Source: a virus
Direction: 5' to 3' (one strand)
DNA length: 23,480 nt
IMG/VR virus record: IMGVR_UViG_3300020190_000357
Coordinates: 1-23,480 of that record
The notes beneath the pieces are model-generated. The model was not told where the DNA came from. It did not search any database and saw only the letters and a list, made by a program, of their open reading frames with translations. The translations under genes were made by a program, and so were the position numbers. This document shows, piece by piece, positions 5,149-13,743 of this stretch; within the stretch, counting starts at the first letter, position 1; every line of letters begins with the position of its first letter.

Positions 5149-6268
5149 TGGGGTAACGTCGCTTGAGTTGTTCCAAGGTTAGTTCGGATCCATCTTCCCT
5201 AACGAAACGCCGTAACGCATCATTCGGTCCATACCTTTTTGCTAGGTAGTTGAAGTACGGCGTCTTGCTGCCAAAGACCTGCTCCTTTTTGGCTGGGTTA
5301 TCCATCAGCCATTCGCCATACGTCTGACGCAACTCAGCATCACGCGCTGCAAACCCCTTGACGATTGGCACCCGCATTGACCTGCAGTTGAAATGCAGCG
5401 GCGGTTGTGGACCTTCACCCCATTTGTAGACCTTGCCATCAAGTGAGCGGCAGATTGGTGAAGTGCGTGTATCGAGGATGGCGGTGTAGCGATATTTTCT
5501 GGTGGCATCAGGGTTTGCGGCTGCTACCTGCTGCATTGCTGCATCCGATACCTGCGTGATGCTGCTACGCACAATGGCGCGGATCTGGTTGTCCGGCATT
5601 GAGGTCAGCAAGCCACCCTGCTGGATGATCTGCTGTGTGGTTCCAAGCTGTTCACGGTTTAACCTGCCGCGCAAGCGACGCACAATGCTGTCGGTTGATT
5701 CGCCAGTCAGAAGCCCGTTGCGGACTGCTTGACTGAACATCTCAGCTTGTTTGGTGCCGATGTTTTCAAACGCCTTGCGGACTACTTCACCATTGGGCAA
5801 CGTCAAAGTGGCACCATCTGCAACCGTGATCCGTGCGACAGCAGTTCTGGTTGCACCTGGCAGTTGATCGCTCAGAGAGACGATTCCAAGCTGCGTCGGA
5901 TCAGTGGTGACAACAGCCTGAGCAAACTGCGGGCTGATTTCCACCGTGCGAACAACAGTGGGCGATCCTGCTGGCAATAAGTCTTGCAGTTGCTGGCTCA
6001 TGAAATCTGACTGCAGGACTGCCAAGCCCTGCAGCTCCTGCGCCATCAATGCCGTGCTTTCGCCGGACCAAGTGGAGAGTGATTCTTTGAGCTGCGCGAG
6101 GATCGCACGCAATCGTGCTGCTGTCTGCGTTTCTGGGTCAAGCGTGGCAAGCCTGTCTGTCGCATCAAGGATCACATCGTTGTAAGCCCTGATAACGCGC
6201 CGTGCGACACCGTTGCTGTAACGGTTCAGGTCAATGGCATTACGAAAGAACTCAGCGTGCTGTGTCAT
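5120..6268 (-). CDS. Head morphogenesis protein (phage Mu F / SPP1 gp7-like minor head protein)
   Basis: This 382-residue protein has helical N-terminal and middle regions. At about residues 262-300 it carries the classic Mu-F signature: TAILDTRTSPICRSLDGKVY, W, then PPLHFNCRS. The conserved residues D266, C273, D277, H292, C295 and R296 are visible. Members bind the portal and are present in a few copies per procapsid, possibly acting on the DNA end or in head assembly. It follows portal and one small gene in the operon, as expected. Its start overlaps the preceding small gene as ATGA. Length is in the usual range. Confidence 0.88.
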   Translation of the reverse strand: MTQHAEFFRNAIDLNRYSNGVARRVIRAYNDVILDATDRLATLDPETQTAARLRAILAQLKESLSTWSGESTALMAQELQGLAVLQSDFMSQQLQDLLPAGSPTVVRTVEISPQFAQAVVTTDPTQLGIVSLSDQLPGATRTAVARITVADGATLTLPNGEVVRKAFENIGTKQAEMFSQAVRNGLLTGESTDSIVRRLRGRLNREQLGTTQQIIQQGGLLTSMPDNQIRAIVRSSITQVSDAAMQQVAAANPDATRKYRYTAILDTRTSPICRSLDGKVYKWGEGPQPPLHFNCRSMRVPIVKGFAARDAELRQTYGEWLMDNPAKKEQVFGSKTPYFNYLAKRYGPNDALRRFVREDGSELTLEQLKRRYPNVKPRVPND

Positions 6269-9348: not shown

Positions 9349-9668
9349 GAACAGAGCTGCGCGAGTTTGGCGGCAGTGTTGATGGCACCAAGGGCGATGT
9401 GATATTGCCCAGCCCTGCGAGCCTCCATTTGGAGTGTGGAGCATTGGGAGAGCAGATCAGCGATCATTTGCGGTCGTTCAATGTCCCAATCTGCTCGCAG
9501 TTGCTGGCGAGCGAGTTCTAAGTATTTGTCGCAAGTACGATCACTGACCCCCCAGTTTTCGGAGGCGTAGCGAATGCAGTCCGATCGTCTGCCGCCGTTG
9601 GCAATGATACGGGCGAAGCGTGCGACCCGCAGTTCCGTTTCAGGTTTTGTGGTTCCTCTGGCAGCCAT
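9345..9668 (-). CDS. Terminase small subunit (HTH, TerS-like)
   Basis: This 107-residue basic protein directly precedes terL and overlaps it by four bases. A helix-turn-helix-like segment GRRSDCIRYASENWGVSDR (about residues 26-46) is followed by YLELARQQLRADWDIERPQM and a C-terminal helical oligomerisation-like region (EARRAGQYHIALGAINTAAKL fragment, about residues 80-100). This matches small terminase subunits, which recognise the packaging site and regulate TerL. Length is at the short end for the family but normal for cyanophage siphoviruses. Its start overlaps the methylase stop as TGATG. Confidence 0.75.
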   Translation of the reverse strand: MAARGTTKPETELRVARFARIIANGGRRSDCIRYASENWGVSDRTCDKYLELARQQLRADWDIERPQMIADLLSQCSTLQMEARRAGQYHIALGAINTAAKLAQLCS

Positions 9669-10903
9669 CAGAAGGGTACGGGGACTTGTTCGAGGTCTTC
9701 AGCGGGAGCGAATTCTGCAGGTTGGCAGACGGCGGTTTTGCCGGTGAAGTCTTCCCAGCGTTTGACGATGACATCGCAGTAGGCGGGGTCAAGCTCCATG
9801 AGTCGCGCTTTGCGGTTGATGCGTTCGGCGGCGATCATTGTTGTACCGGAGCCACCAAAGGAATCGAGGACGATATCACCCTGCTTGGTGGAATTATTGA
9901 GCTGATATTGGAACAGCTCAACTGGTTTCATGGTGGGGTGCTCGCCGTTCTTTTTGGGTTTATCGAACTCGAGGAGAGTGGTTTGCTTGCGGTCTGAATT
10001 CCAGAAGTGGCTTGCGCCTTCAACCCAACCATATAGACAGGGTTCATGTTTCCATTGGTAATCTTGGCGTCCCATCACGAGTGAGGATTTTACCCAAATA
10101 AGGCATTGGCGGATTTGCCAGCCGATGTCATGGGCAGCGCCACGGAAGTTATAGCCCTCAGAGTCAGCGTGCCAAATGTAGAAAGCAGCACCAGGGCGAA
10201 GGGCAGTGGCTGCTGTGGCATAAACATCGCGTAGGAACTGACGGAAATCAGCGTCCTTCATGTTGTCGTTCTGGATTTTAAGACCAGTTCCGCCTTCGTA
10301 GTTGACGTTGTAAGGGGGATCGGTGAGCCAGAGGTCGGCTTGTTTCCCATCCATCAAGCGTTTCATGTGTTGAGCGTTGGTGGAGTCCCCGCAGAGAAGA
10401 CGGTGATTGCCGAGGATCCAGAGGTCACCGAGTTTAGTGATTGGATCGGCGGGGGTTTCTGGAACGTCGTCAGGATCAGTGTTGCCCCCTTCAGGGTGTA
10501 GTTCAGCGACATTAAGCAGTTCGTCGAGATCTTGTTGAGTGAACCAAGGTTCGATGTCGTGCTCTTCGGAGAGGCGATGAAGCATCTCTTGATCCCATTC
10601 ACTGAGATCAGCGGTGCGGTTATCTGCAAGAGCGAGACCGACCTTTTGGTCTTCGGATAAACCAGTGCGGCGAACAGCGATAATTTCGTCGCCTTCGGTT
10701 TCGATGATGCGAACGTTTTTAATGCCAGCGGCTTTAGCGCCTTCGATGGTGCCATTGCCCGCGAGGATACGATTGTCTTCATCGATGACGATGGATCGAG
10801 CGGCACCGTAGCGCTGCAGGGATTCTTTGATTAGCTCAGTGGAGCGATCAGTGCGACGGCGAGCGTTTTTATGGTCTGACTTGAGGTTATTGATTGAGGT
10901 CAC
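9668..10903 (-). CDS. ParB-like nuclease domain fused to DNA adenine/cytosine-N4 methylase
   Basis: This 411-residue protein starts at GTG 10903. Residues about 1-110 form a ParB/Srx-like domain (ILAGNGTIEGAKAAGI, ALADNRTADLSEWD). Residues 155-385 form a beta-class DNA methyltransferase: catalytic DPPY at 195-198 precedes the SAM-binding FGGSGTT at 349-355, with HPTMKPVEL at 322-330. No restriction gene lies nearby, so it is an orphan enzyme; it may protect phage DNA, mark packaging or replication sites, or regulate transcription. It is next to terminase, a common phage position. Specificity cannot be read from sequence. It could be N6-adenine or N4-cytosine. Confidence 0.88.
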   Translation of the reverse strand: MTSINNLKSDHKNARRRTDRSTELIKESLQRYGAARSIVIDEDNRILAGNGTIEGAKAAGIKNVRIIETEGDEIIAVRRTGLSEDQKVGLALADNRTADLSEWDQEMLHRLSEEHDIEPWFTQQDLDELLNVAELHPEGGNTDPDDVPETPADPITKLGDLWILGNHRLLCGDSTNAQHMKRLMDGKQADLWLTDPPYNVNYEGGTGLKIQNDNMKDADFRQFLRDVYATAATALRPGAAFYIWHADSEGYNFRGAAHDIGWQIRQCLIWVKSSLVMGRQDYQWKHEPCLYGWVEGASHFWNSDRKQTTLLEFDKPKKNGEHPTMKPVELFQYQLNNSTKQGDIVLDSFGGSGTTMIAAERINRKARLMELDPAYCDVIVKRWEDFTGKTAVCQPAEFAPAEDLEQVPVPF

Positions 10904-10947: not shown

Positions 10948-11166
10948 TTAATTAGCAGAAGAGCGTAGCTGGTTGATCTTGGGTTCGACAAGGTGATGTG
11001 ACGAAACGATGCCGCAGTTGCTGCCAACGCAGACGCGAACGCAGCCATCAGGCAAGTTTTCCAAGGTCGGTTGGACGGATGTAGCGGCTGATTCGACCAA
11101 GTGGTTCAGGCGTTGACGGGGGCTGTGGGTCATTGATCTGGCGGTAAAGGGCGAGGTGGTAGTCAT
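10948..11166 (-). CDS. Small phage protein of unknown function (two C, G-S-N-C-G motif)
   Basis: This is a 72-residue frame whose ATG (11166) overlaps the stop of the upstream RHH-like gene as ATGA. The first 11 residues are polar, followed by MTHSPRQRLNHLVESAA, a helix, and a beta segment DGCVRVCVGSNCGIVSSHHL with three cysteines that might bind metal (C-x3-C-x4-C, then HH). An internal start at the second Met (codon 12) is possible. No family recognised. It is supported by coupling and by filling the space before the methylase gene. Confidence 0.5.
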   Translation of the reverse strand: MTTTSPFTARSMTHSPRQRLNHLVESAATSVQPTLENLPDGCVRVCVGSNCGIVSSHHLVEPKINQLRSSAN

Positions 11167-11501
11167 CCCACAGGTTGAGAAGGGAACTGATCTGCTGGTT
11201 GGTTGGCTTGCGTTTTGTCATGGATGGAGCAGAGAACGGCAGCGGTGATGGCTTCGACGATGGGACGCGAGCAAGAGCCTGAGGCAGCCCTGAGAGCGGC
11301 TGTAACGGCTTTCTGGTATTGCCTAAGGGTTAGGGGCGCAAGAGCGGGTTTCGCGGCTTCAAAGCCCACAGAGGGGTCTCCTAGCGCACGCAAGCGCATA
11401 AGGGTGGAGCGATCCATGCCAAGGGCTTGTGCTTGGCGGGTGATGTGAGCGTTTTCTTCGGCGGTAAGACCGACTTTGACGGGGGTGCGCTTTTCGCTCA
11501 T
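11163..11501 (-). CDS. Ribbon-helix-helix / MobC-like DNA-binding protein
   Basis: This is a 112-residue protein from ATG 11501, one base after the preceding stop; longer starts run into that gene. The N-terminus has the typical RHH pattern: basic beta strand RTPVKVGLTAEE followed by two helices (NAHITRQAQALGM and DRSTLMRLRALG), as in MobC-type relaxosome accessory proteins and CopG-like repressors. The C-terminal part has a helix (LTLRQYQKAVTAALRAASG) and a low-complexity Q/P tail. It probably binds DNA as a dimer; the target is unknown. It is one of three RHH-type proteins in this window. Confidence 0.6.
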   Translation of the reverse strand: MSEKRTPVKVGLTAEENAHITRQAQALGMDRSTLMRLRALGDPSVGFEAAKPALAPLTLRQYQKAVTAALRAASGSCSRPIVEAITAAVLCSIHDKTQANQPADQFPSQPVG

Positions 11502-11502
11502 G

Positions 11503-11730
11503 TCAGAAGGGCAATGGGGTTTCGGTTGGTTCAGCGATGAAGTCACGCGGATCCGTGACTTGGACCTTGGGGTCAGGTGCCACGTCACGCAGAAGGTTGC
11601 GGTATGCCTGCGGGTTGACATGCCCTGGTGGTGGGCTGTCGAGCTGATCGATGGTGCAGCGCCCTGCAGCGATTATTCGCTTGAGGATGTCGCGTGCACC
11701 ATCTTCTGTAGAGATGCGTTTCAGTGCCAT
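11503..11730 (-). CDS. Small phage protein with P-P-P-G-H-x-N-P-x-A-Y-R-N-L-L motif
   Basis: This 75-residue protein begins MALKRISTEDGARDILKRII, then GRCTIDQLDSPPPGHVNPQ and AYRNLLRD. The 'PPPGHVNP-AYRNLLRD' segment resembles a conserved part of small proteins in cyanobacterial phages and phage-like regions. It is soluble and helical, with an acidic-proline C-terminus ending LPF. Start and stop are coupled: its ATG shares a base with the stop of the upstream gene (TGATG), and the RHH gene starts one base after its stop. Function unknown; it probably belongs to the replication/regulation sub-operon. Confidence 0.62.
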   Translation of the reverse strand: MALKRISTEDGARDILKRIIAAGRCTIDQLDSPPPGHVNPQAYRNLLRDVAPDPKVQVTDPRDFIAEPTETPLPF

Positions 11731-12044: not shown

Positions 12045-12844
12045 CAGAAGACGTAGGTGGCATGGTTGATTGCTTGTTGCCCTGCCGGTCGGTCGGCAAC
12101 GGTGGCGTAACGCTCATCGCGCAGCCAACGGAAGCAATCAGGCAGTGGGCTAATGAAGGCATCACCAGCGGCTTGCTGGTGCTCGATTTCAGTTTCGAGG
12201 GCTTTGACGAGAACAGCTTCGGTTTCGGTCCGGATGGTTTTCTGCCACTGCGCGAGGGCTTTTGGCTTGGATTGGGAGGTGGCGCGGATGGGCGCGGAGA
12301 GGTACAGCTTCCAGAACCGCTCAAAGGCTTCGCTGCCTTTGGCGTGTGGCTTGCGCTTGGGCGGTTCGGGGGTGAGTTCAAAAAGCTCTTCTGACACGGC
12401 TGCAAACCCCGTTTGCAGCTTTAAGTGGGTTCTTGTTATGGGTTCTTGTTCTTGGGTTCTTGTTAGTGGAGCATTTTTGCTCCGGGTAGGTGGGGCATTT
12501 TTGCTGAGGGTACCCGGAGCATTTTTGACCTGGGTCATTTTTGACCTGGGTTCTTTTTGCTCCGGGTGGTCAACGCGGATGTGGTAGATCGTGGTCTGCC
12601 CTGGGCGCAGCTCGACGGCTACCCAGTCGGTCTTGACCAGTTCTGACAGGCAGCGTTGAACGACCTTTTCGCAGATGCCTGTTTCACGTGAAATTGTCGG
12701 GACTGAAGCAAAACAGCCGTGCGATGAATTCCAGCCGTGGCGATGCAGGCAGGCGTAAACGCCCCAGATTTTGTAGTCAGGGTGCATGTCCATCAAGCGG
12801 TATGGGACGACAGCAAATCCGCTTGATTTGATCCTTAGTGCCAT
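12044..12844 (-). CDS. Replication initiator-like winged-helix protein (lambda O / DnaD-like organisation)
   Basis: This 266-residue protein has three parts. Residues 1-92 form a winged HTH (PDYKIWGVYACLHRHGW, SVPTISRETGICEKVVQR, then wing), similar to phage/plasmid initiator N-domains. Residues 93-141 are a low-complexity linker encoded by two DNA repeat families. Residues 170-250 resemble the C-domain of phage replication proteins: FERFWKLYL, a K-x2-A-x2-W-x-K segment, and ISPLPDCFRWLRDERY. The architecture parallels lambda O, whose gene contains the origin iterons in its linker. It would bind the origin and recruit a host helicase loader; none is encoded here. Function inferred from architecture. 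Confidence 0.68.
   Translation of the reverse strand: MALRIKSSGFAVVPYRLMDMHPDYKIWGVYACLHRHGWNSSHGCFASVPTISRETGICEKVVQRCLSELVKTDWVAVELRPGQTTIYHIRVDHPEQKEPRSKMTQVKNAPGTLSKNAPPTRSKNAPLTRTQEQEPITRTHLKLQTGFAAVSEELFELTPEPPKRKPHAKGSEAFERFWKLYLSAPIRATSQSKPKALAQWQKTIRTETEAVLVKALETEIEHQQAAGDAFISPLPDCFRWLRDERYATVADRPAGQQAINHATYVF
12426..12464 (-). repeat. Three short direct repeats within the initiator gene (family 2)
   Basis: TGGGTTCTTGTT occurs exactly three times, at 12426-12437, 12439-12450 and 12453-12464 (minus-strand reading AACAAGAACCCA). Spacings are 13 and 14 bases, so the copies fall in different codon registers of the initiator gene (encoding parts of LTRTQEQEPITRTH). DNA-level rather than protein-level conservation suggests a binding site, such as an iteron or DnaA/helicase-loading element. 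Confidence 0.7.
12471..12567 (-). repeat. Five iteron-like direct repeats within the initiator gene (family 1)
   Basis: A 17-base unit, approximately GCATTTTTGMYCNGGGT on the plus strand, recurs at 12471-12487, 12495-12511, 12519-12535, 12535-12551 and 12551-12567. Spacings are 24, 24, 16 and 16. The first three share a codon register (peptides TRSKNA, TLSKNA, TQVKNA); the 16-base steps shift register so that the same DNA encodes RSKM and PEQKE. Copies at 12519 and 12535 are identical over 16 bases. GGAGCATTTTTGCTCC (12468-12483) is also a perfect 6-base-arm inverted repeat. This arrangement is typical of iterons in a replication origin placed inside the initiator gene. Confidence 0.78.
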
Positions 12845-12851
12845 GTACAGT
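12823..12851 (+). promoter_or_regulatory. Candidate plus-strand promoter across the initiator start codon
   Basis: TTGATT (12823-12828) and TACAGT (12846-12851) are separated by 17 bases, a sigma-70-like arrangement with 4/6 matches in each box. It overlaps the first codons and ATG of the minus-strand initiator gene (start 12844). Transcription would begin near 12858 and reach a strong terminator about 40 bases later, producing a short RNA antisense to the initiator leader. Boxes of this quality can occur by chance; the support is the terminator immediately downstream. Confidence 0.35.
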
Positions 12852-12857
12852 TGCGGT

Positions 12858-12899
12858 GCGTTTGTGCATTGAGCCTCCGGTCACTGCCGGGGGCTTTTT
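12858..12899 (+). ncRNA. Candidate short antisense RNA to the initiator mRNA leader
   Basis: Predicted from the promoter-like boxes at 12823-12851 and the intrinsic terminator at 12873-12904; no ORF lies within. The RNA would be about 40-45 nt, mostly the terminator hairpin, and complementary to the untranslated stretch between the RHH gene stop (12898) and the initiator start (12844). Its place matches RNAII of pMV158, which is made between copG and repB and blocks repB translation. It is an inference from arrangement only. Confidence 0.35.
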
Positions 12900-12904
12900 A
12901 TTTT
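12873..12904 (+). terminator. Intrinsic terminator pointing right, opposite to flanking genes
   Basis: GCCTCCGG (12873-12880), loop TCACTG and CCGGGGGC (12887-12894) form a GC-rich near-perfect stem followed by TTTTTATTTT. It can only terminate plus-strand transcription, yet both flanking genes (initiator and 59-aa RHH gene) are on the minus strand. The T-run overlaps the RHH gene stop codon. This implies a plus-strand transcript here. Confidence 0.75.
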
Positions 12905-13077
12905 GCTGCCGCCTGGGGAGCCTGCAAGGATTTGAGCTCGCGCAACTCAACGGCTTCTAGAAGAAGCTGATTGACGAAGCCTTTACGAGTCAGATGAGTG
13001 GGCTGAATGAGGTCAATGCGACTGAGGATTTCATCCGCGATGCGGATGGTGACACCCTTTGAAACTGTCAGTGGCAT
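12898..13077 (-). CDS. Small ribbon-helix-helix (CopG/Arc-like) regulator
   Basis: This is a 59-codon gene from ATG 13077 to TAA 12898. The sequence fits the RHH fold: a short beta strand with SKGVTIRIADEI, helix 1 LSRIDLIQPTHL, a turn, and helix 2 TRKGFVNQLLLEAVELREL, with a short Ala/Gln tail. RHH dimers bind operator DNA with the paired strands. It lies upstream of, and in the same direction as, the initiator gene, 53 bases away, and is next to divergent promoter-like boxes. I infer it is the autoregulator of the replication transcript and perhaps of the divergent early genes, like CopG of pMV158. No SD is visible. Confidence 0.72.
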   Translation of the reverse strand: MPLTVSKGVTIRIADEILSRIDLIQPTHLTRKGFVNQLLLEAVELRELKSLQAPQAAAK

Positions 13078-13079
13078 GG

Positions 13080-13108
13080 TTGGAAAAGCGCCGAAGCCGC
13101 GCTACTGT
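13080..13108 (+). promoter_or_regulatory. Candidate promoter for the early plus-strand operon
   Basis: TTGGAA (13080-13085), a 17-base spacer and TACTGT (13103-13108) form a sigma-70-like promoter. The start point would be near 13115, about 11 bases before the TTG start codon of the exonuclease gene. Its -10 box overlaps that of a minus-strand promoter candidate, so the two could not be open at once. Box quality is moderate (4/6 each). Confidence 0.4.
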
Positions 13109-13132
13109 AAAGCCCATCCGCTGATTTGGCAA
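13104..13132 (-). promoter_or_regulatory. Candidate promoter for the RHH-initiator operon
   Basis: On the minus strand TTGCCA (13132-13127), a 17-base spacer and TACAGT (13109-13104) form a sigma-70-like promoter with a predicted start near 13097, about 20 bases before the RHH ATG at 13077. The -10 lies on the same bases as the -10 of the rightward candidate, because TACTGTA reads TACAGTA on the other strand. It would control the replication genes and perhaps the whole leftward operon. Confidence 0.4.
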
Positions 13133-13743
13133 CCTTGCTTGCGCCCATCGAAGGACTCCAATTTCACCCGGAACTGCATCGCTACTGCTTCCACGGGCGC
13201 TGGCTGCCGTTCAGCGTCTCCCGCATCGCCAGCCCTGCCAGTCCAGAAGCGGAGGCACGCTTCAAGCAGACGCAGCACATCTGGGAGCCTCGCGGCAATG
13301 CCGTGCATGCTTTCTGCGAAGCCCTGCTGACCGCCGAGGCGCTGCCAGCTACTGACTACGACGAGTGGACGGAGCCGCTGCAGGACTGCTGGCTGCTGCG
13401 CGACAGCGAGGTGCTTGCGGTCGAGTATCGGCTTTGCGACGCCCGGAAGGGCGTTGGAGGTAGCTTCGATTTCTTGGTGAAGACCAGCAACGGCAAGGTG
13501 GCGCTAGGTGACCTCAAGACCGTTGGCAGCGATTCAGCCGTGAGCCAGCGCAAGCCCGCAACAGCGCAACTTGGAGGCTACCTTTCGATGCTGATCGACC
13601 ATCATCAGCTCAACGTGGACTGGTGCTACACGCTGGTGTCTGGTCCTGGACGTTGCCGGGTGATCCAAAGCGAGCCGGACGAGTGCCTTGGAGCTTGGGT
13701 TGATGCTTGGGATGTGTTCAAGCTGGATCACGCACCGTTCTGA
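13126..13743 (+). CDS. PD-(D/E)XK exonuclease (RecB/Cas4-like)
   Basis: This is a 205-residue protein starting at TTG 13126; no ATG or GTG fits because a stop lies at 13108 in frame. Motifs of PD-(D/E)XK nucleases are present in order: RGNAVHAFCE (residues 57-64 include H61), E100 in AVEYRL, GGSFDFLV with D115, GDLKT with D129 and K131, and AQLGGY with Q148. These are the metal and catalytic residues of RecB-family 5'-3' exonucleases. With SSAP, SSB and RusA further downstream it would make single strands for phage recombination. It is the first gene of the plus-strand operon. The upstream promoter candidate leaves only about an 11-base leader. Confidence 0.82.
   Translation: MATLLAPIEGLQFHPELHRYCFHGRWLPFSVSRIASPASPEAEARFKQTQHIWEPRGNAVHAFCEALLTAEALPATDYDEWTEPLQDCWLLRDSEVLAVEYRLCDARKGVGGSFDFLVKTSNGKVALGDLKTVGSDSAVSQRKPATAQLGGYLSMLIDHHQLNVDWCYTLVSGPGRCRVIQSEPDECLGAWVDAWDVFKLDHAPF

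Follow-up and report, generated by a model that had tools for sequence, protein, structure and literature searches.

In a 23,480-base virus record (IMG/VR IMGVR_UViG_3300020190_000357, positions 1 to 23,480; the window below), the genes of a small protein and of a replication initiator follow each other on one strand, and between them lies a terminator pointing the opposite way. Does this junction hold a separate gene for a very small antisense RNA, and what would such an RNA act on? An earlier note on this DNA answered with a plasmid-style control, laid out like copG-RNAII-repB of pMV158. The two ORFs are arranged as that note described them (Table 1). The comparison with relatives reported here suggests that a conserved, very small antisense-RNA gene adjoins the initiator and probably limits its synthesis.

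Table 1. Features at the regulator–initiator junction of the window.
Feature	Position	Strand	Remarks
Lambda O-like replication initiator, 266 aa	12044..12844	-	PHROG 270, E 5.1e-19; Pfam HTH_36
Four 24-nt direct repeats within the initiator gene	12466..12569		Repeat family D2, 71-83% to reference copy
Possible antisense -35, TTGATT	12823..12828	+	Inside initiator codons 6-8 (KSS); varies in relatives
Antisense -10 box, TACAGT	12846..12851	+	1 nt from complement of initiator ATG; TAnnnT at main position in 33/40
Predicted antisense RNA, 47 nt	12858..12904	+	13-nt 5' tail, 11-bp hairpin, 4-nt loop, 8-nt U-rich end
Intrinsic terminator stem-loop of antisense RNA	12871..12896	+	11-pair stem; wobble G-U on + strand only
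Terminator T-rich tail	12897..12904	+	Overlaps RHH stop codon (complement of 12898-12900)
59-aa ribbon-helix-helix (RHH)-like protein	12898..13077	-	Upstream of initiator, same strand; AF2 and fold matches
Inverted repeat AGCGC-N7-GCGCT	13087..13103		Just downstream of operon -10
Promoter-like site of RHH-initiator operon, TTGCCA-17-TACAGT	13104..13132	-	Consensus match only
Divergent exonuclease-like gene	13126..13743	+	PHROG 298, E 1.4e-16; control region in common with RHH-initiator operon

The window had been called cyanophage DNA, and this label is sound, since the portal proteins of the window and of cyanophage KBS-S-2A share 77% identity, and the one of Synechococcus phage S-H1 reaches 75%. 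An Rfam search of the window at the gathering score returned no matches. The initiator matches HTH_36, O-like or primosomal replication families and, in one weak case, a Ren-like family; the rolling-circle (HUH) RepB family is absent among its Pfam and PHROGs matches. The repeats inside its gene are probably the iterons of an origin, which fits the earlier description of the initiator as "iteron-type". Among phage records, kin of the initiator were found in KBS-S-2A only. A tblastn search of 72,556 plasmid records gave no match at E 1e-3, and none of 18 pattern matches in bacterial genomes was confirmed.

Relatives of the initiator were drawn from IMG/VR, where the best 80 of 115 confirmed matches were retained (79 loci), and from phage records (KBS-S-2A, locus L022). 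The leader set comprised 56 loci, namely 54 of the 79 together with L002 and L022. Sixteen of them were dropped because their 110 nt of upstream DNA were identical to another, which left 40 distinct leaders; L002 represents the leader of the window. Left out of the set were L023 (on the contig of L002), 11 loci with only the C-terminal domain of the initiator, and the loci truncated near the initiator start (L028, L039, L050, L056, L065, L066, L073, L075, L079-L082 and L098), two of which (L056 and L075) contain the antisense unit on later inspection. The leader rows are of common ancestry, and the counts hold in 22 clusters formed at less than 80% initiator identity.

All 40 distinct leaders have an intrinsic antisense terminator in the 130 nt that precede the initiator ATG; on the sense strand, such a terminator was found in 2/40. 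The same search was positive in 51 of 734 random windows of these loci and in 192 of 800 dinucleotide shuffles of the leaders. In the window, the opposite-strand terminator had been placed at 12873-12904, which is nearly exact. The strand on which the hairpin folds can be read from its wobble pairs. A strand-neutral stem finder was used, which treats G-U and A-C alike and picked short 4-pair inner stems in L033, L035 and L036. The stems of the 40 leaders contained 352 Watson–Crick cells, 36 cells that are G-U on the antisense RNA, none that are A-C, and 5 others; for the 22 clusters, the numbers were 197, 18, 0 and 3, respectively. In 302 control windows, G-U (97) and A-C (92) were found. Wobbles that are G-U on the antisense strand, with none that are A-C, mean that selection has acted on the hairpin of the antisense RNA. 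Pair types in the outer part of the stem vary (C-G, G-C, A-T and wobble forms). The fold z-score is -3.71 for the 47-nt antisense RNA of the window and -3.82 for that of L029; the KBS-S-2A stretch (-1.34) folds weakly better than its shuffles.

The promoter proposed earlier, TTGATT-17-TACAGT at 12823-12851, is correctly placed, but within the window alone it does not rise above chance. It agrees with the consensus at 8 of 12 positions, under the scan threshold of 9. Between 10000 and 15500, two promoter-like sites were found versus 2.2 (sd 1.5) in shuffles, and ten terminator-like sites versus 7.2 (sd 3.3), neither number being above chance; a claim from this single sequence would thus be weak. 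A conserved -35 element was considered and rejected: TTGATT is a poor match, sits in conserved codons and has no conservation independent of them.

It is the relatives that reveal the start of the RNA. In the 37 rows anchored on the initiator ATG (L029, L030 and L032 were excluded from these counts), columns -45 to -1 are weakly conserved except for C at -14, A at -7 and T at -3 (33/37 each), and A at -2 and C at -1 (37/37 each). On the antisense strand, positions -14, -7, -3 and -2 read TAnnnT, six free bases and G, which makes a -10 box followed by the base where transcription would start. This reading has no place for the invariant C at -1, a point against the antisense-RNA explanation. Among the 22 clusters, TAnnnT occupies the main position in 17, and G follows in 16 of these 17. 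In L022, L094, L099 and L100, the -10 box and the +1 G are shifted jointly by 3 nt, with TGTGC ahead of the -10. The pattern (TAnnnT or CATAAT)-N6-G, beginning at most 7 nt from the complement of the start codon, was found in 40 of 44 leaders; at other ATGs of the same loci it occurs in 23/3410 cases, and at other ORF starts in 8/262. The 44 leaders are the 40 distinct ones and L116, L117, L132 and L133 (the last two alike), which were added after inspection, as were the CATAAT form and the use of a short-ORF ATG in L029, L030 and L032; both forms of the pattern were applied to the control. The pattern misses L033, L048, L051 and L072, where TAnnnT is present and the +1 G is missing.

Where the promoter pattern is present (40 leaders), the predicted RNA has a length of 40-60 nt, the median being 48.5, and its 5' tail measures 10-28 nt, with 14 as the median. 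Its start precedes, by a steady 10-17 nt, the first of the start codons that lead to the replication protein. At the sequence level, the antisense promoter and start pattern, the terminator, the strand of the folded RNA and their conservation are established, and they bear out the expectation that the interval between regulator and initiator encodes an antisense RNA of RNAII size, whose start is a short way upstream of the initiator ATG. KBS-S-2A, which grows on Synechococcus WH7803, is a cultured cyanophage with this unit. In the accessible part of the literature on cyanophage antisense RNA and OOP RNA, nothing was found that reports such an RNA from a cyanophage; a review (PMC12197685) names CfrI of S-PM2, antisense at psbA, as a cyanophage antisense RNA.

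The nearest known arrangement, which the earlier note did not name, is cII-oop-O of phage lambda, where a small regulator gene, an antisense RNA and an O-like initiator with iterons inside its gene follow one another in the same way. In lambda, OOP begins at base 38,675, and the -10 box of pO has been placed 8-13 nt away from that 5' end (PMC5869508), which puts it on the O start codon (38,686); a pO -10 mutation lies 2 bp from the first O codon (PMC3985674). As far as can be judged from sequence, the unit described here has its antisense -10 in the same place. Another likeness is the terminator, preceded on the sense strand by AATAAAAAACGCC; between cII and O, the lambda sense strand reads ...ccaataaaaaacgcccggcggcaaccgagcg..., a reversed terminator of the same style. 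The differences are also clear. OOP is 77 nt long (PMC12197685), whereas the RNA predicted here has about 48 nt; oop overlaps cII by 52 nt (PMC5869508), whereas the RHH ORF is hardly overlapped here. The upstream regulator is RHH-like and not CII, and lambda O has AGGAG before its start, whereas most initiator starts here lack such a site.

In size and target, the RNA is nearer to RNAII of pMV158 than to OOP. In pMV158 copG-rnaII-repB, an RHH gene and the initiator gene are likewise on one strand, and the antisense RNA (48 nt versus 47 nt in the window) has a 5' tail and one terminator hairpin and is complementary to the region just upstream of the initiator start. In RNAII, 17 nt of tail lead into a stem of 8 bp, followed by a U-rich end of 8 nt; the RNA blocks translation of repB (PMC4485353). 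RepB, however, is a rolling-circle initiator; the initiator here is O-like and thus of another kind, so the window does not contain a pMV158 replicon. Repression by CopG is established in pMV158, whereas for the RHH-like protein it is a guess by analogy, and the RHH gene is not constant here. The parallel drawn in the earlier note therefore holds for the size and target of the RNA and fails for kinship, given the PHROG 270 and HTH_36 matches of the initiator, the lack of plasmid matches, the closer likeness to cII-oop-O, and the six of 40 leaders in which no RHH gene was found. The plasmid-like state which that note considered gained no support: AAA_31 (ParA type) was found in 0/18 and tyrosine integrase in 1/18 records, many of them fragments, and the search of plasmid records gave no match to the initiator.

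The reading we favour, and consider fairly likely, is that a separate cis-antisense RNA gene of about 47 nt at the RHH–initiator junction lowers initiator synthesis and thereby damps replication. RNA polymerase would start at G12858, driven by the -10 box abutting the initiator start codon; transcription would run away from the initiator via a short single-stranded tail and end at the hairpin near 12904. The RNA would be complementary to the leader of the initiator mRNA, beginning 14 nt before the ATG and extending away from it, and pairing with this leader would lower initiator synthesis, most likely at translation. Since RNA output would follow template number, replication would be damped. 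We infer production of the RNA, a block of initiator translation and repression of the operon by the RHH protein. Control of initiator synthesis is favoured by the constant distance of 10-17 nt between the RNA start and the first start codon of the replication protein, and control of translation is suited because this start codon is that of the initiator or, in L029, L030 and L032, of an overlapping short ORF. What counts against leader pairing is that the site to be blocked is no classical ribosome site and nothing singles out this start. Shine–Dalgarno-like sites occur at 5/40 initiator starts and at 12/89 other long ORFs; they are equally rare at both, so their lack is no argument in itself.

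The main rival, which we regard as unlikely, is convergent transcription, as proposed for lambda pO. Polymerases from the antisense and operon promoters would collide, giving less initiator mRNA and less transcription through the origin, and the terminator would only keep the RNA short. The layout is that of lambda, with the -10 on the O start codon, and there pO reportedly reduces pR transcription and influences replication from ori-lambda (PMC3985674). For lambda oop, the closest layout to have been tested, the same paper reports that the RNA acts on cII and leaves the stability of O-P mRNA unaltered and that pO acts by transcription interference, which speaks against our favoured reading; the part of oop/pO in lambda replication has stayed unclear. 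Such interference does not itself demand an RNA of 40-60 nt or a start distance of 10-17 nt; both, however, could be promoter constraints. Leader pairing and convergent-promoter interference cannot be separated by sequence.

It is much less probable that the RNA chiefly destroys the upstream RHH message, as OOP does with cII. The terminator tail reaches into the RHH stop codon in the window, and the 52 oop bases overlapping cII (PMC5869508) offer a precedent. The predicted RNA, however, has no overlap with the RHH ORF in 17 of 34 leaders; in the other 17 they overlap, by more than 8 nt in only one of the 34. The initiator leader is therefore the constant target, and the unit persists in the 6/40 relatives where no RHH gene was found. 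An equally slight chance is given to the hairpin being a mere insulator, with no dedicated RNA, that keeps stray antisense transcription from running on into the promoter of the RHH gene and into the exonuclease gene diverging from it. An exonuclease-like gene does lie beyond the hairpin on the plus strand, but the -10/+1 pattern in 40/44 leaders, with its concerted 3-nt shifts, marks a dedicated start. It is highly improbable that the hairpin serves the sense mRNA, where the initiator leader would use it for translation or for binding a protein. In each of the 40 leaders it does sit roughly 24-93 nt ahead of the initiator start, but wherever a stem cell is a wobble, it is G-U in the antisense transcript, A-C being absent (18 versus 0 in the 22 clusters; 36 versus 0 in the 40 rows), and the 88-nt sense leader of the window has a fold z-score of 0.06.

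The 59-aa protein had been called RHH; Pfam has no RHH model matching it, only weak unrelated matches, and the fold is weakly suggested by structure prediction. The AF2 model (pLDDT 79.5, pTM 0.55) has helices at 15-24 and 31-57 and no assigned strand. Its highest-Z structural matches are chains of TraM (Z 4.3, rmsd 2.0 over 41 residues), MazEF (Z 4.1) and VapBC; TraM, MazE and VapB are RHH proteins. A search with a PDB sequence profile found nothing at E <= 1, and Foldseek alone found no match at E <= 0.001. NF050104 matches in 6/19 (E 0.0087), and there are weak PHROGs matches to 'transcriptional repressor' (best E 0.018); by Pfam or PHROGs, the upstream gene is not CII-like.

An RHH-like gene lies within 450 nt upstream in 34 of the 40 leaders. 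In L022, L078, L083, L094, L099 and L100, none was found within this distance, and the antisense terminator is kept in all six. In KBS-S-2A (L022), an 81-aa gene without Pfam or PHROG match (5680-5925, CPKG_00027) stands before the antisense unit in the place of the RHH gene. As some relatives without the RHH regulator keep the RNA gene, a role in replication could be tested separately from one in expression of the regulator. By analogy with CopG, and given clade-specific inverted repeats near the operon -10, the RHH protein may repress its own operon. Perfect inverted repeats of at least five pairs are present in 16 of 21 regions, a number counted without a chance control. The arms of AGCGC-N7-GCGCT, a possible RHH operator, are identical in L003-L005 and absent from L018. 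The palindromes differ by clade and are at most candidate operators.

When the relatives are compared, it can be noted that the unit stays while the genes around it change. In L018 and L020, the N-terminal part of the initiator differs and the unit is retained. In L116, L117, L132 and L133, the RHH gene and the antisense unit precede a gene that is not the O-like initiator: in L117 and L132, an ORF of 124 or 126 aa overlaps a gene whose AAA_25 product resembles primases/helicases, and the DNA of L116 and L133 is similar. The antisense -10 is CATAAT in all four and, like that of lambda, shares bases with the start codon. Behind the unit thus stands an O-like gene, in some cases with a swapped N-terminus, or a helicase-like module of the AAA_25 type. 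A tie between the unit and the C-terminal domain of the initiator was rejected, since none of the 11 loci with this domain only (L084-L093 and L096; several are near copies of one another) has a terminator at the first in-frame ATG; an inner ATG of L092 gives a weak one. In L085 and L087, which have the C-terminal domain and no antisense unit, the N-terminus looks RHH-like by eye. Retained with a swapped initiator N-terminus or another replication gene and missing where only the C-terminal domain remains, the unit behaves as a cassette. A tentative extension, somewhat more doubtful than not, is that it is a self-standing copy-control cassette of these cyanophages, with an antisense RNA of about 48 nt at the start codon of any replication gene and usually an RHH repressor, that would exert plasmid-style negative feedback on replication during infection. 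Provided that the RNA is made, phages and plasmids would have in common the oop/RNAII design at the initiator start codon, with varied regulators and replication genes.

In L029, L030 and L032, the unit lies beside the ATG of an ORF of 10-11 codons, which is situated between the antisense promoter and the initiator; its stop and the initiator ATG share bases (TAATG or ATGA). The encoded peptides are MRFLSHAGAF (at 2969-3001 of L029), MRFVFCVGAF and MRFIFCLGAFA, respectively. The overlap suggests translational coupling, by analogy with R1 tap-repA. In copB-copA-tap-repA of R1, a short-ORF stop likewise overlaps the initiator start and the antisense start lies beside the short-ORF ATG; here, however, the overlapping ORF is found in three leaders only, and coupling is suggested from their sequence. 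CopA is also a longer RNA. The R1 system provides a precedent for control of translation (PMC5717011). In Bacillus subtilis, an antisense RNA overlaps the 5' untranslated region of dnaA (PMC12112137), likewise that of a replication initiator, but a chromosomal one.

Two other genes of the window can be noted on the far side of the initiator. Downstream of it, 11163-11621 has a NikA-like Pfam match (E 1.9e-5), slightly under the curated cut-off. At 9668-10903, a single protein combines a ParB-like N-terminal part with an N6/N4 DNA methyltransferase (PHROG 498, Pfam N6_N4_Mtase).
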